The translations under genes and the position numbers were made by a program. A stretch of DNA of 64,000 nt, taken from the NCBI RefSeq assembly GCF_030691015.1, contig NZ_JAUYFF010000001.1, positions 310,001 through 374,000 on the forward strand, written 5' to 3'. The stretch is from Sulfuricurvum sp. (GTDB lineage Bacteria; Campylobacterota; Campylobacteria; Campylobacterales; Sulfurimonadaceae). This document shows positions 3,356 to 9,892 of this stretch, piece by piece. The notes beneath the pieces were generated by a model, which saw only the letters and a program-made list of their open reading frames with translations, was not told where the DNA came from and did no database searches. Every line of letters begins with the position of its first letter. Within the stretch, counting starts at the first letter, position 1.

Positions 3356-4099
3356 ATGCAATACTCTTTTTTAGCCTCTTACGCCCTTATCATTTTTGCC
3401 CTATGGTATTCACGCCGTGAACAATTTGGTCTGGAAAAAACGATTCTGACGAACTCCATTTTGGCGATGGTTCAGCTCGGCCTCCTCGGCTATGCACTCG
3501 TCTATCTTTTTAAAATCGAACACCCCTCTTTGCTCTTTTTTGTATTGCTAGGGATGGTGACTTTCGGTGCCTATACCGCCAAGAAACGCTCACCACTAGG
3601 AGAACATAGTTTTAAAATCGCTTTTTTTACCCTTGGGGCTTCGTCGGGGATCGTCTTTTTATCGATGATGGCGTTCGGCGTCATCCACATGGTTCCTCAT
3701 GAGATGATCCCCATCGGGGGGATGATCATCGGCAATGCCCTCAACGTCTATACCCAAAGCACCGAGCGGTTCCGCGCGGAGGTCAAAAATACGATTGAGA
3801 CGATAGAGGGGATGGTCGCATTGGGTGCGCCGCTCAAAGAGGCACTTAGTTTTGCCTCAAAAGCCTCCGTCAAAGCATCCATGATCCCGACACTCAATAT
3901 GCTCCAGACGGTGGGAATCATCCATATCCCCGGTATTACGACGGGGATGCTCCTCGCGGGAGCCGATCCATTACAAGCGATCTCGTATCAACTCGCCGTC
4001 ATGTATATGATGGTGGCTGTTGCGCTCCTTGCAGCCGTATTTAGCACGATGTTCTCGTATCACGTTATTATCGGTGCGGCGTTTACAGACCCTCGCTAA
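3356..4099 (+). CDS. FetB/UPF0014 family iron-export ABC permease
   Basis: Multi-TM; MIIGNALNVYTQSTERFRAEV and GAPLKEALSFASKASVKASMIPTLNMLQTVGIIHIPGITTGMLLAGADPLQAISYQ are typical of UPF0014. Confidence 0.85.
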   Translation: MQYSFLASYALIIFALWYSRREQFGLEKTILTNSILAMVQLGLLGYALVYLFKIEHPSLLFFVLLGMVTFGAYTAKKRSPLGEHSFKIAFFTLGASSGIVFLSMMAFGVIHMVPHEMIPIGGMIIGNALNVYTQSTERFRAEVKNTIETIEGMVALGAPLKEALSFASKASVKASMIPTLNMLQTVGIIHIPGITTGMLLAGADPLQAISYQLAVMYMMVAVALLAAVFSTMFSYHVIIGAAFTDPR

Positions 4100-5321
4100 A
4101 TCGTTTTGCTTTGGGATGGACAAAACAAAGCTTTTCCCACCCTCGATTCGGACGAATCAATGTCACCCGATGTGCCGACACGGAGCGGGATAAAGCGACA
4201 TAAAACTGCGAAGGAGCAAAGATTTCATTCGTCTCGATAACATAATCGGCTAAAGACATCCCCTGCGATTTGTGAATCGTAATAGCAAAAGCCAATGTGA
4301 TCGGAAACTGACTGAGAGTAATGAGTTTCTCTTCACTCGCCGTGCTCCCTTTTTCAATCCAGCGTGTCTTAGTCGTATCAACACGCTCTACTTTGACACT
4401 GGCACCGTCCTCTTTTTTGACCCATATCACCTCGTCCTCGATGGAGGTGATTCGTCCCCGCTCGCCATTATAGTAATTCCATGCATTTCGGGTAAAGAGA
4501 ATCGGAGCACCCACTTTCAAAGCCAATATTGGTTCGATACGACTCTCGATCATAAACCGCTCGACATCGCGTTCCTGCATCTTTTTATCATGGATCGTGA
4601 CATAAGTTTCAACCTCGATAATCTCACCGTTTAGATGTTCCAGTTGGGAGCGGTTATGATTTTGAGCGCTGATATTTTTACCGTACAACAGCGTAATAGA
4701 CGATTTGTCCTCGCTGAGTGGTCTCACTAACGCATCCAATGCATTATGCGCCTCTTCATCGAGACGGGCATGGCGTACTTTCTCCAATAGACTCAAAAAC
4801 TCCTCTTCATGAGTACGGTATGACCCTTCCAAATGCAATATCTCAAACCCCAGCCGTTCCCAGCTTGGAGATTCAAAAGCGAAATAGATCGGTTCATTCC
4901 CGCGAGTCACGGGAGGGAGCTGTAAAAAATCCCCTACTACGATGAGACGACCTGCAAATTCTGCTTGAAGGAGTCGAAGTCGAATCATATCCAGTAGTGG
5001 CGCCCCCACCATCGAAATCTCATCGATAACGATAAGTTGCATCGTCCTGATGAGTTTAATAATTTTTTTAGAGGGATCGAGTTTGCCGTTGCGCTCCAAC
5101 TCCTCTTGGGACGAAGCAATCCCCAGATCAAAAAAGCTGTGGAGGGTCTGCCCGCCGATCAATGTCGCCGCCATTCCCGTTGAAGCGAGACGGGCAACCG
5201 ATTTACCCTTTTGCACCGCATCCTCGATCAGCGCACGGGTCAATGTTGTTTTCCCCGATCCCGCACCGCCCGTGATAAAGAGGTTGGAAATTTCTAAACT
5301 TTTTAACGCGTTTTCAATCAT
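4083..5321 (-). CDS. RecD-like/PIF1-type ATP-dependent DNA helicase
   Basis: Walker A GGAGSGKTTL, VIDEISMVG, VVGDFLQLPPV, C-terminal FAITIHKSQGMSL and YVALSRS motifs of SF1B helicases. Confidence 0.9.
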   Translation of the reverse strand: MIENALKSLEISNLFITGGAGSGKTTLTRALIEDAVQKGKSVARLASTGMAATLIGGQTLHSFFDLGIASSQEELERNGKLDPSKKIIKLIRTMQLIVIDEISMVGAPLLDMIRLRLLQAEFAGRLIVVGDFLQLPPVTRGNEPIYFAFESPSWERLGFEILHLEGSYRTHEEEFLSLLEKVRHARLDEEAHNALDALVRPLSEDKSSITLLYGKNISAQNHNRSQLEHLNGEIIEVETYVTIHDKKMQERDVERFMIESRIEPILALKVGAPILFTRNAWNYYNGERGRITSIEDEVIWVKKEDGASVKVERVDTTKTRWIEKGSTASEEKLITLSQFPITLAFAITIHKSQGMSLADYVIETNEIFAPSQFYVALSRSVSAHRVTLIRPNRGWEKLCFVHPKAKRFSEGL

Positions 5322-6390
5322 TCGTATCCTTAAGGGTAATCACCCGTCCAAACGGGATATCCATAGACAGCGGCGCAATCCACAAAGTTTCATACGGCGG
5401 TTCATACGGAGGAAATTTACCGTCAAGATCGGTAAAATAAAGGAGGATTTTCGGTCTGTGCGTCCACGATTCGATTAGCTCAAAGACGGGTCTAAAATCA
5501 GTTCCCGCACCACCGCTGAGAGTATAGGTGATAGCCTCTCCCCGCTCAAATCGATTATGGGAGCGAATGCGCTCATCACAGACAATCAGATCGATGCTAT
5601 AGGAGCCGAACAACTCCGTGATCGATTCTACCTCGGAAATAAACTGCGCTAAAAGTACCTCATCAACCGACCCTGAACTGTCAATCGCGACAGCAAGTTC
5701 CAAATGGCGCGAATGGACCCCAGGCAGATAGATCCCGCTATAGAGGAGCTTTTTACTAGGGGGGATTAGAGTATAGTCACTGACATAATACCCGCCGATT
5801 TCCTCGCGCAGTTCACTACGCCAATCGATGAGACTCTTTTTATGCGGTTGAATCAAGTAATGGATCGCTTCGCTGAGGGGGTCTGATTTCTCCAGCGCCT
5901 CCTCGGAGCGTTTTTCACGCTGTGCACGAGAGAGCTTTTCATCCAGCCCCGGTTCATCACGACCTTCATCACTGTCTCGGTCGTTTTGTTCCTGATCTAA
6001 AAACTCCAGGGAGAGCTCATGATAGATCTCTTCGGCACTCAGATTACCGAATCGTTTATCGTAGGTGATTGCAGGAGGCGGAGTAAAACCGCTTTCGATC
6101 AGCAACGTGTTAATCGCGTAATCACACGCCATATTCCAAAGCCACGGGCTTCGGTTTCCTCGTCTTTGGGTATGACTTAGCGCTTCATGCAAAGCAGCAT
6201 TACACAGAGTAAACATCCGCTCTGCTTCGACAAGAGACTCCATATACCCCTCACGATATTCAAAACGCCCCTCACGGATAGCAAAACTCTCGATATTATC
6301 GTTTACGATATTCTCCATGCCGCTGGCAATCGTGCCGAAAAACGGATAATCGAGAAGGAGTTTGGCTTTAAGGGGAGAAAAATCGATCAT
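5314..6390 (-). CDS. DUF2201-like/VWA domain protein (predicted metallopeptidase family)
   Basis: SHTQRRGNRSPWLWNMACDYAIN region matches the DUF2201 N-terminal pattern; VWA MIDAS AIDSSGSVD and GGAGTDFRPVFE. ATG at 6390 overlaps the upstream stop (ATGA). Confidence 0.8.
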   Translation of the reverse strand: MIDFSPLKAKLLLDYPFFGTIASGMENIVNDNIESFAIREGRFEYREGYMESLVEAERMFTLCNAALHEALSHTQRRGNRSPWLWNMACDYAINTLLIESGFTPPPAITYDKRFGNLSAEEIYHELSLEFLDQEQNDRDSDEGRDEPGLDEKLSRAQREKRSEEALEKSDPLSEAIHYLIQPHKKSLIDWRSELREEIGGYYVSDYTLIPPSKKLLYSGIYLPGVHSRHLELAVAIDSSGSVDEVLLAQFISEVESITELFGSYSIDLIVCDERIRSHNRFERGEAITYTLSGGAGTDFRPVFELIESWTHRPKILLYFTDLDGKFPPYEPPYETLWIAPLSMDIPFGRVITLKDTND

Positions 6391-7379
6391 AGCAGATAGG
6401 CATACGCCTCGACCCATTCGCCGAAAGCCTCCAGATGTTCCATCGCTACACCCTGGCGCTGAAGGTCTTGAACAATCATGACGGCAAACTCATTTTTGAG
6501 TTTTAACGTATAGCGTAATAGATGAGAGAGAGCCTCTTCATCAGGAGCGCTCAATATGCGTGATACCAAAATATTAGAGAGGGCATAGAGAGTGGAGAGT
6601 TCAGTAGGAGCTTCACACTCCTCACCGCGTAAAATCGCATCGATATCGGGAAGATGATCCATGATTTTACAGTATCCTAAAAAATCGACGGCGGCATCCT
6701 CCCCCACCGCGCCGCTAATCGCTTCAAGCAGCAGATTACGAGGCAACCCACTTTCTAAAATTTTATGAACCGCTTCCCAGCTGCGCGGCGTTGCGAAACT
6801 TCTCTCATTTCTAAGCGGATCAAAACCGAACAATGCGCTGTTTTTAAACGCGATATAAGCGATCAAACGCGGATCGATCCGGCTTTGTAATGCCCAAATT
6901 CTCCAATCCGTGGCACTCACCTCCATCTCGATATGGACGAATCGGTTTGCCAGCGGTGAGGGGAGACGATACACCACCCCCCGATCGCTCTCGCGATTTC
7001 CCGCCGCAACGATTGACCACCCTTTAGGAAGCGTATATTCTCCCACTTTACGATCCAAAATCAGCTGATAGGCCGATGCTTGCACCGCAGGGGCGGCGGC
7101 ATTTAGCTCATCGAGAAAGAGTATCCCTCTCCCCTCACGCGGTAAAAAAGAGGGCGGTGCCCAAAGTGCCAGATGTGCCTCTTTGTCATAAAAAGGGATC
7201 CCTTTAAGATCCGTCGGATCGAGAAGTGAAAGGCGTAAGTCAATACATTCGAGATCTTTCTCGTGAGCAATCTGTTTAATAATTGAGGATTTGCCGATCC
7301 CAGGAGCCCCCCATAAGAAGGTCGGAATCTGCGATTCGATCAACGACTCAATCGTTATTTTTGCCTGAGAACTGCGCAT
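6387..7379 (-). CDS. MoxR-like AAA+ ATPase
   Basis: Walker A WGAPGIGKSS, Walker B ILFLDELNAA, sensor region AAGNRESDRGVVYRLPSPLANRFVHIEM. An alternative start lies at 7388. Confidence 0.9.
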   Translation of the reverse strand: MRSSQAKITIESLIESQIPTFLWGAPGIGKSSIIKQIAHEKDLECIDLRLSLLDPTDLKGIPFYDKEAHLALWAPPSFLPREGRGILFLDELNAAAPAVQASAYQLILDRKVGEYTLPKGWSIVAAGNRESDRGVVYRLPSPLANRFVHIEMEVSATDWRIWALQSRIDPRLIAYIAFKNSALFGFDPLRNERSFATPRSWEAVHKILESGLPRNLLLEAISGAVGEDAAVDFLGYCKIMDHLPDIDAILRGEECEAPTELSTLYALSNILVSRILSAPDEEALSHLLRYTLKLKNEFAVMIVQDLQRQGVAMEHLEAFGEWVEAYAYLL

Positions 7380-8626
7380 CAGAACCATCCTATATTATGG
7401 GTTTGTATATGTTTTCCGAAAGCAGAATTGGTTTTCACTGCTCTCTCAAACCGCCGATCCAGAGAGAGCTGATACAGCACTTCAATCGGTGTAGATGTGT
7501 TGGCTGCAAGAGAGGACAATACTTCAACATCAAAACTTGCAGAGAGTGCTTCGAGCCATTTTTGATTGAGTGAGGGATTAGAAGCGAGTTCTTTCATAAA
7601 ACATCCCGTACTATAGAGCTGCTCTAGGATCGTATTATCGGCCATAGCATTCGACGCGAGGGAACGATAGACCGCTTCATCATGTAACACCATCAACCGT
7701 TTTTGCATCACCAAGGTAAGACTTGAATTGCCCGCTAAATTATGGGCATAGTCTATGACCAAGCGATCAAACCGCTCATCACTTAGTATCGTATTAGATG
7801 CTATAAGATCGGGGTACGTACGCTCCAGCACATCAGCCCCTTCTTTAGATAAAGTGGTATTCTCTGAAAGAATCCGATTGATCGCTTCTTCTTTTAATGC
7901 CAACAATTCACTCTCCAAGTCTAAAGGCTTCCGATGGGCTAAAAGTGCTGCCCGCTCCCCCATCAATAGACGTAAAATACCCTCTTTGGTCTCACGATGA
8001 AGTGCCATCGCATCAAGGACTCCAGATAAAGATCTATCTGAGGGGTTTTTTAACTCTTTGGCTATAGGTGATAATTCTGCTATCGCACTGATCAAGTCAC
8101 TGTTTCCATATTGTTCGATCAAATGTGCCAATCCACTCATCGCATACTGAACATTATGATTGCGATCTAAATCGACATAAAAGCGGCCTATTATTGCGGC
8201 GGTTACGTCTCGATTGGTATCGTTATCAAATAATCCTTCTCCTTGCCAGTCGTAGAGTTTCAGTAGTTTGAAAAATAATTCATCGGTAATATAAGGATTT
8301 TGTAAAAAACCGACAAGGCGCTCTTGATTGTGTGAAAGCTTCAGACTCATCAATAATCGATTGGGTTCAATAGAGCGGCACAACCACTCTTCTACGCGTG
8401 AGAGTTCTACAATTGGGGTACATTGTGCTTCATAAAGACGCGCCGATTCAGCCTGTTCGTAAGGATTCATCATCCTCCCTTCAACAATCAGGGCAACACT
8501 TTTTGAATAGGTTCCGACACGCTCAATTTTATGCAATTTGAGAAGGGTATCAAACTCCTCGTGACTCAATGCACGGGTTTTCCCTAACAGTAAAACCGAT
8601 TTTCCACAAAGCTCTTCATAGTTCAT
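7379..8626 (-). CDS. Uncharacterised protein: N-terminal BRCT-like domain plus C-terminal LRV/HEAT-like helical repeats
   Basis: N-term GKSVLLLGKTRALSHEEFDTLLKLHKIERVGTYSKSVALIV...IVELSRVEEWL resembles BRCT; recurrent LA.N..L....L..L units in the C-terminus. Confidence 0.55.
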   Translation of the reverse strand: MNYEELCGKSVLLLGKTRALSHEEFDTLLKLHKIERVGTYSKSVALIVEGRMMNPYEQAESARLYEAQCTPIVELSRVEEWLCRSIEPNRLLMSLKLSHNQERLVGFLQNPYITDELFFKLLKLYDWQGEGLFDNDTNRDVTAAIIGRFYVDLDRNHNVQYAMSGLAHLIEQYGNSDLISAIAELSPIAKELKNPSDRSLSGVLDAMALHRETKEGILRLLMGERAALLAHRKPLDLESELLALKEEAINRILSENTTLSKEGADVLERTYPDLIASNTILSDERFDRLVIDYAHNLAGNSSLTLVMQKRLMVLHDEAVYRSLASNAMADNTILEQLYSTGCFMKELASNPSLNQKWLEALSASFDVEVLSSLAANTSTPIEVLYQLSLDRRFERAVKTNSAFGKHIQTHNIGWF

Positions 8627-8705
8627 AACGCGTATTATATTCACTCACTCTAAAAAAACTCACACAAAGGTATAATGTCGCCAATAGTTTAAAAGGATTT
8701 TAACG

Positions 8706-8966
8706 ATGGATGAACTCTACGAGGGAATTGCCGCTTACGATGCGGGAAATTTTACTAAAGCCTATGAGTTGCTTTACCCCCTTGCGGCCTACAAACGTGA
8801 TCCTGAGGCACAATTTCACATGGGCATGATCTATTTTTACGGTGAAGGGGTCGACAAAGATGTCGATAAAGCAATGGAGTGGTGGAAGAAGGCCATGAAA
8901 AGTGGGCATGTGGATGCAGCCTATCGTCTCAGTGAAATTTCTACATCGACCAAAACAACGTTTTAA
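8706..8966 (+). CDS. Small Sel1-repeat/TPR-like protein
   Basis: DPEAQFHMGMIYFYGEGVDKDVDKAMEWWKKAMKSGHVDAAYRLSEI is a Sel1-like repeat. Confidence 0.8.
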   Translation: MDELYEGIAAYDAGNFTKAYELLYPLAAYKRDPEAQFHMGMIYFYGEGVDKDVDKAMEWWKKAMKSGHVDAAYRLSEISTSTKTTF

Positions 8967-9023: not shown

Positions 9024-9437
9024 ATGCCGAATGCGTTAGCTGAAGATTGCTCTGTTCTACAAATATCCTTAGTTCAAAATATCCAAAAGTTTGATTATCG
9101 GTTTAAACGCTATCAGGTCAGTTATTCTATCGTTCTTTTATACTGTTCTGACAATGTAAATTTTAATGAATTGTCCAACTGTATACGTTGTACTGACCGC
9201 TTGATTACTTTAGACAAGCATACATGTGCGATTGTTTTTGACTCCACAACCGCTGAAACCGGTCAACTAGCAGCCAACAACTTTTTAGAATATTTTAAAT
9301 GCACATTTTGTTCATCAAAATTTTTTACATCTATTGTCAATTCAAATCATTATGACGATGTCGATTGTATGATTCCTGAACTATTTTCCCAGTTATATGA
9401 CACGGTTGAAAACAATGCAATGGCACTGAGCAGTTAA
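9024..9437 (+). CDS. Hypothetical protein; possible degenerate GGDEF-like domain (paralog A)
   Basis: FDYRFKRYQVSYSIVLLYCSDN...CIRCTDRLITLDKHTCAIVFDSTTAETGQLAANNFLEYF; similar to the adjacent ORF. Confidence 0.6.
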   Translation: MPNALAEDCSVLQISLVQNIQKFDYRFKRYQVSYSIVLLYCSDNVNFNELSNCIRCTDRLITLDKHTCAIVFDSTTAETGQLAANNFLEYFKCTFCSSKFFTSIVNSNHYDDVDCMIPELFSQLYDTVENNAMALSS

Positions 9438-9439
9438 TT

Positions 9440-9892
9440 ATGATTAATACACTCAATCAACAGCGTCAGAATTTTCAAGAACAGTTGATTAAAGAGATTA
9501 CAGAATTTCATTACCGTTTTAACCGCTACCATACAAAATACTCGATTGCACTTGCCTATATTTCTGAAGAAAACGGTGATTTGAGTATCTGTTCCGAACA
9601 TCTGCGTGAAAGTGACACTCTCATCTTGTTTCAAAACAACTTTTGCGCTCTTATCTTTGATAGTACAAATGAAGAGCAAGGGATAAAAGCTGCCAATAAC
9701 GTTCTCTCAGACGTCCAAAATATTTTTTTTGCAAAACACTTCTATATGGCAGTGACTACAGCATCAGATGAGTACAGTGAGTTTCAAATGGTCCATGACC
9801 TTTTTGATCTCATTAGCTATGCACTGGAACACAATATGGATAATCTTGTTATAGACAGCTCTCAAATTATCCAGCACAAACAATTAGTTTAA
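9440..9892 (+). CDS. Hypothetical protein; possible degenerate GGDEF-like domain (paralog B)
   Basis: FHYRFNRYHTKYSIALAYISEENGD...LRESDTLILFQNNFCALIFDSTNEEQGIKAANNVLSDV. Confidence 0.6.
   Translation: MINTLNQQRQNFQEQLIKEITEFHYRFNRYHTKYSIALAYISEENGDLSICSEHLRESDTLILFQNNFCALIFDSTNEEQGIKAANNVLSDVQNIFFAKHFYMAVTTASDEYSEFQMVHDLFDLISYALEHNMDNLVIDSSQIIQHKQLV

Follow-up and report, generated by a model that had tools for sequence, protein, structure and literature searches.

Three genes of an overlapping four-gene locus in Sulfuricurvum: a MoxR ATPase and a DUF2201-VWA protein with a BRCT-like/LRV repeat protein, beside a neighboring helicase

Which genes of a tightly overlapping bacterial locus belong together, and on what might their products act? 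The question is raised by a 64,000-nucleotide stretch of contig NZ_JAUYFF010000001.1 from the sulfur oxidizer Sulfuricurvum sp. (hereafter, the window). Its minus strand encodes a BRCT-like/LRV repeat protein (BRCT-LRV; 7379..8626, 415 amino acids, aa), a MoxR-type AAA+ ATPase (6387..7379, 330 aa), a DUF2201-VWA protein (5314..6390, 358 aa), and a PIF1/RecD-like (Dda-like) superfamily 1 helicase (4083..5321, 412 aa). The first-pass annotation described these as four minus-strand genes joined by TGATG, ATGA, and 8-bp overlaps, and our re-reading of the open reading frames and junctions agreed. The stop and start codons of BRCT-LRV and MoxR overlap by 1 bp within TGATG (7381-7377), the MoxR and VWA genes share the 4 bp of ATGA (6390-6387), and the VWA and helicase genes overlap by 8 bp (5314-5321). 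The start sites were consistent with those of homologues, and the overlapping frames are not a product of chance, as all four proteins are conserved in dozens of genomes. Here, we argue that the functional unit is formed by three of these genes, BRCT/LRV, MoxR, and DUF2201-VWA, referred to below as the triad.

The grouping was examined in a phylum sample of 220 Campylobacterota genomes and in a genus survey of 25 Sulfuricurvum genomes. Full-length BRCT-LRV was found in 25 of the 220 genomes, and a MoxR of the triad type was found in the same 25, with no genome carrying just one of the two. The two genes lay within 1 kb of each other on the same strand in 22 of these 25 genomes. Four genomes with only paralogous MoxR types (G099, G103, G163, and G245) had no BRCT-LRV. 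As the genomes are related, no formal probability was attached to this co-occurrence, which was seen across at least ten genera. Within Sulfuricurvum, the repeat protein was present in 21 of 25 genomes.

The helicase matched PIF1 in Pfam (PF05970, 9e-29) and a Dda-like family in PHROGs (phrog_325, 5e-59), and it did not reach the NCBIfam equivalog cut-offs for RecD2 and RecD (77 versus 500 and 57 versus 310 bits). Of the 220 Campylobacterota genomes, 128 encoded it, and 106 of these had no triad. Among the 22 triad genomes that carry it, the helicase was ≤10 kb from the triad in ten, all belonging to genera g1 or g18; in the other 12, it lay farther off on the chromosome or on a different contig. 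Nearly all Sulfuricurvum genomes (24 of 25) have the helicase; its gene abuts or overlaps the VWA gene in 15 of the 20 with both genes placed, and other genes or gaps intervene in the remaining five. At Sulfurimonas-type loci (L088, L090, L091, and L094), VWA and helicase are separated by a GGDEF response regulator gene of the opposite strand. Four Sulfuricurvum genomes (G004, G010, G016, and G023) have the helicase and no triad. In G016, the region before the helicase aligns with the region before the LRV gene of the window, and the triad is therefore present or absent exactly between promoter and helicase. This intergenic promoter region (8627..8705, read on the minus strand) has a TATAAT a few bases 5' of the start codon, an element that the alignment places in common before the window LRV gene and the G016 helicase; the LRV transcript is probably leaderless. 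On its other side stands a Sel1-repeat protein gene (8706..8966, plus strand), a left-flank marker at loci with and without the triad.

A four-gene system including the helicase was rejected on the basis of this genome-wide distribution and the arrangement in triad-less G016. The first-pass annotation had joined the helicase to MoxR-VWA as a component, a proposal contradicted, under the refutation condition that the annotation itself had set, by the 12 of 22 genomes with the helicase elsewhere, its 106 triad-less carriers, and the opposite-strand gene in Sulfurimonas. We best explain the helicase as a core, vertically inherited neighbor that is not a component of the unit and that shares its transcript in Sulfuricurvum only, as it probably does in the window. 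The idea of a MoxR-VWA machine with a BRCT-like/repeat partner in one transcription unit held up better, since the partner recurs, also outside Campylobacterota; it was the helicase's membership that had to be dropped. We also considered insertion of a mobile cassette beside the helicase from the triad-less sites, and no integrase was seen. Because Sulfurimonas (L091) shares the Sel1-LRV-MoxR-VWA flank, a precise loss of the triad from G016 is no less likely than its insertion in the window.

We then turn to the BRCT-LRV protein, which had no match in Pfam, NCBIfam, or PHROGs. No significant LRV repeat match was obtained for the window copy in Pfam; the repeats were recognized in its orthologues L071 and L069 (PF01816/PF25591, with PF01816 at 1e-12 in L071). 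An AlphaFold model built from 26 natural sequences (pLDDT 92) contains a beta-alpha-beta-beta-alpha-beta-alpha domain, the topology of a BRCT fold, followed by a helical alpha-solenoid. Foldseek matched the N-terminal part to the BRCT domain of human RFC1 (2ebu; probability 1.00, target TM 0.52) and the remainder to importin/armadillo folds, with no whole-chain match at E 0.001. The model supports a BRCT-like fold at the N-terminus. At the sequence level, the BRCT family PF00533 did not find the protein within its own genome at E ≤ 10, and a PDB sequence search with the BRCT part gave nothing meaningful. The BRCT domain of LigA from the same genome did align in register with the N-terminus, weakly (E 0.018, a single chosen comparison). 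In the comparison with LigA, the phosphate-binding Thr/Ser and Lys were not conserved, with Thr replaced by a hydrophobic residue and Lys by Gln/Glu (the Lys region being aligned by eye). RFC1-like DNA-end binding was rejected, as these pocket residues are missing, and their replacement makes it more likely that the BRCT part would serve protein-protein contact. The nucleoprotein client suggested in the first-pass annotation lost its main support with the helicase, and these substitutions weaken it further; it can still draw on the BRCT fold and on a single Thermus plasmid, described below, in which the triad precedes AddB-like and UvrD genes.

Conservation along the BRCT-LRV protein is uneven. 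Over 78 genome pairs within the genus, identity was 64% in the BRCT-like segment (residues 1-86), 87% in a highly conserved helical segment (87-172), 52% in the variable LRV/armadillo-like repeats (173-365), and 72% in a conserved C-cap (366-415). Mean identity over the same pairs was 83% for the helicase, 79% for MoxR, 68% for VWA, and 63% for LRV, the last being the least conserved of the four proteins in 46 of the 78. An Fe-S LRV protein like that of Azotobacter was considered and rejected, as no Fe-S domain match was obtained in Pfam. A second, shorter LRV family of about 190-250 aa, unlinked to the triad, also occurs in Campylobacterota (G000:C8:75152-75475, with similar copies in G057, G073, and G174).

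The MoxR protein of the window matched the MoxR-type AAA family PF07726 (Pfam, 3e-7) and phrog_1297 (PHROGs, 1e-99). It has a Walker A motif (GAPGIGKS), a Walker B motif (LFLDEL), sensor-1 (AAGN), and conserved arginines (R133/R146). Homologues keep GxPGxGKS, LFLDEL, AAGN, and the arginines, the features of a MoxR-type AAA+ ATPase, arginine finger included. The nearest solved relative in the PDB was midasin (2e-24).

The adjoining gene encodes a protein with DUF2201 (5e-25) and DUF2201_N (4e-22) matches in Pfam, arranged as an N-terminal zincin-like (putative metallopeptidase) domain and a C-terminal VWA domain. Its AlphaFold model was fair (pLDDT 82), with the VWA part clear, and the zincin domain matched minigluzincin MJ1213 weakly (0.002). 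The MIDAS of the VWA domain is intact, with DxSxS at D237, S239, and S241, followed by T297 and D321. The zincin active site is degenerate, with NAALHEALSH or NAALHTVLSH in place of HExxH. All Campylobacterota copies that were read, two paralogue types included, show NAALH or a similar sequence there and have lost the catalytic Glu, as have those at L118 and L126; among the other copies read, those of Thermus, Allomeiothermus, Synechocystis, and phage Pollock and most from Gammaproteobacteria retain HExxH. The best reading of these residues is that the zincin of the window protein is a dead peptidase, retained as a scaffold.

To find relatives of the triad, we scanned GTDB with an alignment of MoxR, obtaining 80 loci. 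Leaving aside the nif-region paralogues, and wherever the upstream sequence was available, an LRV gene stands 5' of MoxR in Sulfuricurvum, Sulfurimonas, and Sulfurovum, as it does in one Arcobacter metagenome-assembled genome. A deltaproteobacterial metagenome-assembled genome (L118) encodes a 978-aa LRV-like solenoid (weak match to Pfam LRV_2, 0.0025), MoxR, and VWA, with 4-bp and 0-bp junctions. On the Thermus oshimai plasmid pTHEOS01 (L082:7040-15143), LRV (2.6e-11), MoxR, and VWA are followed in overlapping order by AddB-like and UvrD helicase genes, the AddB-like assignment being based on a weak TIGR03623 match and the pattern of Cys residues at the C-terminus. Allomeiothermus silvanus pMESIL01 has the order LRV-VWA-MoxR (LRV 1e-57, with both DUF2201 domains in Pfam), and on Synechocystis pSYSA a 638-aa LRV protein is encoded about 4 kb from MoxR-VWA, on the opposite strand. 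Related LRV-containing sets are thus spread over Campylobacterota, Deinococcota plasmids, and deltaproteobacteria. LRV alone was rejected as a predictor of the system, as plasmid LRVs of Streptomyces, Aeromonas, and Deinococcus have no annotated MoxR alongside.

Gammaproteobacterial relatives, at about 42-46% identity, are without LRV. At 14 such loci (e.g., L124:3310-4434), many from sulfur oxidizers, a different, apparently helical protein of 360-390 aa lies 3' of MoxR-VWA; this downstream protein (about 374 aa) had no Pfam or NCBIfam match, and it may replace LRV there. Further plasmids were also seen. On Burkholderia and Rhodovastum plasmids (L080:8001-11263 and L083:7962-11192), MoxR is followed by a protein of roughly 300 aa that belongs to no Pfam family, and this in turn by VWA, the Burkholderia set being near PRTRC genes. 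On two unrelated plasmids (L079:12573-16365, pSYSA; L081:9053-12771), a DUF262 gene lies no more than a few kb from MoxR-VWA, and the pSYSA copy of this gene matches PADLOC Orf5 (5e-172).

Two further MoxR-DUF2201 pairs occur within the genus (L059-L062 and L077; G017, G016, G013, G007, and G010), both in a single cluster with NifQ, ODP/flavodoxin, and GGDEF genes. NifQ directly precedes one paralogous MoxR, and the cluster lies 16-47 kb from nifH in five genomes; these pairs are possibly a nitrogenase-related maturation module. A nitrogenase link was rejected as the role of the window copy, as the nif region contains only the paralogues. Two Sulfuricurvum loci carry additional genes beside the set. 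In G007 (L063:4016-10212), type III restriction-modification genes, together with genes for an OLD/AriA-like ATPase and a DUF4276 toprim protein, stand exactly between MoxR and VWA. In G003 (L064), VWA adjoins a Fic gene and the same OLD/AriA-like ATPase/toprim pair, with LRV-MoxR on another contig.

How does the triad compare with described MoxR-VWA systems? Four MoxR-vWA-centric ternary classes have been defined, with VMAP, iSTAND, FtsH, or beta-propeller components (Kaur et al. 2020, PMC7159879). Like the triad, they combine a MoxR AAA+ ATPase, a vWA co-chaperone fused to an often-dead peptidase-type domain, and a dedicated third protein. The third protein of the window, however, is BRCT-LRV and none of the four types: no VMAP, iSTAND, FtsH, or beta-propeller domain was found in it or its orthologues in Pfam and NCBIfam, its modeled fold is a BRCT domain plus alpha-solenoid, and its MoxR falls below the cut-off of the bpMoxR model. 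A pair of MoxR and an N-terminal metallopeptidase-vWA protein is also known from jumbo phages, with a proposed role in virion assembly and processing (PMC7824862). The phage pair (jumbo phages; N4 gp24/gp25, Schitoviridae) belongs to the same families, phrog_1297 and phrog_1314, and shares the zincin-VWA architecture, but HExxH is intact in the phage Pollock copy and no LRV gene is annotated nearby. PHROGs and many RefSeq records (e.g., NC_027381) give the N4 gp25-like family phrog_1314, for which 439 phage records matched, the name "HNH endonuclease", a label that looks like a propagated error because the matching window protein has DUF2201_N and VWA domains.

NorQ-NorD, RavA-ViaA, and CbbQ-CbbO likewise pair a MoxR-type hexamer with a VWA partner acting on a client complex, although their VWA architecture differs, they have no LRV/BRCT adaptor, and their clients are known. 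In NorQD, the ring twists and stretches the linker of the VWA partner (PMC13036017). Midasin (Rea1/Mdn1), the closest solved relative of the MoxR domain, uses its MIDAS to grip a client and pulls assembly factors from a complex (PMC8837202); unlike the triad, it is one giant chain, dedicated to eukaryotic ribosome assembly. Within the open-access literature, which is not the whole literature, we found no description of a MoxR-VWA system with an LRV or BRCT third component, and nothing on MoxR with LRV, with DUF2201, or with Sulfuricurvum. The component families are known, and BRCT-LRV as the third component of a MoxR-VWA set is a new variant within the literature searched.

Taking these comparisons together with the residues described above, we consider it fairly probable that the triad is a MoxR-VWA remodeling motor with BRCT-LRV as a variable client adaptor and the dead peptidase as a platform, the helicase being only a neighbor. 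We infer that the three proteins would form a complex, in which MoxR would assemble into an ATPase ring. The VWA protein would dock on this ring via its MIDAS-bearing domain and transmit force to the client, as in NorQD and midasin, and its zincin domain, with peptidase function gone, would offer a binding platform. BRCT-LRV would act as the client adaptor, docking on the machine through its C-cap and conserved middle segment and recognizing the client through its fast-changing LRV repeats, perhaps the BRCT part too. By this analogy, BRCT-LRV would choose the client on which MoxR and VWA exert force, and the outcome would be a protein complex remodeled or dismantled rather than cleaved. The client is most likely, as a guess, a cytosolic multi-subunit protein (or metalloprotein) of these chemolithotrophs; we rank a conflict role next and place a helicase-coupled role third, far behind. 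More tentatively, the triad may be a further MoxR-vWA ternary class, with a BRCT-LRV adaptor and dead zincin, in which the repeats would recognize a variable, possibly foreign protein or nucleoprotein client and the motor would pull it apart.

Several points weigh against a motor with a dedicated client adaptor. In G030, G216, and G247, 3 of the 25 genomes, LRV and MoxR are separated or rearranged, no VWA gene was found near LRV-MoxR at several Sulfurovum loci, and the client, as noted, is guessed. The fast change of LRV could be plain loss of constraint; repeat regions drift. In G011, the operon is a mosaic, with the helicase from one clade, MoxR-VWA from another, and LRV closest to the first clade; parts of the operon therefore recombine separately, and this mosaic, together with patchy presence, would also fit an anti-phage or anti-plasmid conflict system. 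BRCT-LRV would then sense a component of the invader, and MoxR-VWA would set a threshold or trigger the response. The four published MoxR-vWA ternary classes have all been interpreted as conflict systems, their vWA peptidase domains often catalytically dead (PMC7159879). Presence in 21 of 25 congeners and 25 of 220 genomes of the phylum, the variable repeats, the relatives on plasmids, and the restriction-modification, OLD/AriA-like ATPase, and toprim genes between MoxR and VWA in G007 all agree with such a role. PADLOC, however, gave only marginal ATPase matches for MoxR (0.0045 and 0.05) and none for VWA or LRV. The triad contains no nuclease, toxin, or NADase, and no DNA-cleaving or membrane-attacking effector was seen. 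Moreover, it occupies the same chromosomal site beside housekeeping genes in Sulfuricurvum and most Sulfurimonas, a stability that argues against a defense island. We regard the conflict reading as doubtful.

A chaperone for metal-cofactor maturation of one metalloenzyme, similar to NorQD/CbbQO, would be a special case of the remodeling motor preferred here. Its appeal lies in the two paralogous pairs adjoining NifQ and ODP/flavodoxin genes near nifH, in the chemolithotrophy of the carriers, and in the NorQD precedent (PMC13036017). No metalloenzyme gene stands beside the triad, though, and genomes with nifH and no paralogues exist, as does the reverse; an LRV partner is not known in NorQD/CbbQO systems, and the LRV protein here has no Fe-S domain. 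This narrower role seems unlikely. The helicase would have to be a working partner if the unit served DNA repair or nucleoprotein remodeling. The 8-bp overlap in the window, direct abutment in 14 congeners, the BRCT-like fold, a nearby ExoX-like exonuclease, and the AddB-like and UvrD genes overlapping in order behind the pTHEOS01 triad would all suit such a unit. Its improbability, which we judge to be high, follows from the 12 of 22 genomes in which the helicase is far from the triad, from its triad-less carriers, from the response regulator gene interposed in Sulfurimonas, from G016, where the helicase sits directly behind the promoter, and from the unconserved pocket Thr and Lys.

Beyond the Sel1-repeat gene, the plus strand of the window encodes two consecutive small proteins (9024-9437 and 9440-9892; 137 and 150 aa) that are mutually similar by eye. 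They had no Pfam match and, by eye, resemble degenerate GGDEF domains.

Collectively, this analysis corrects the idea of the helicase as part of the unit and offers, in the VWA protein, an example of a metallopeptidase-VWA protein in which catalysis has been dropped and the scaffold retained. MoxR-VWA modules are widespread, and most are without a known client or specificity factor; here, a distinct protein, strictly co-inherited with the motor, is the putative factor. With this arrangement, and with the protein clearly divided into a conserved middle segment and repeats that vary, client choice by a MoxR-VWA machine becomes testable in a small three-gene system.

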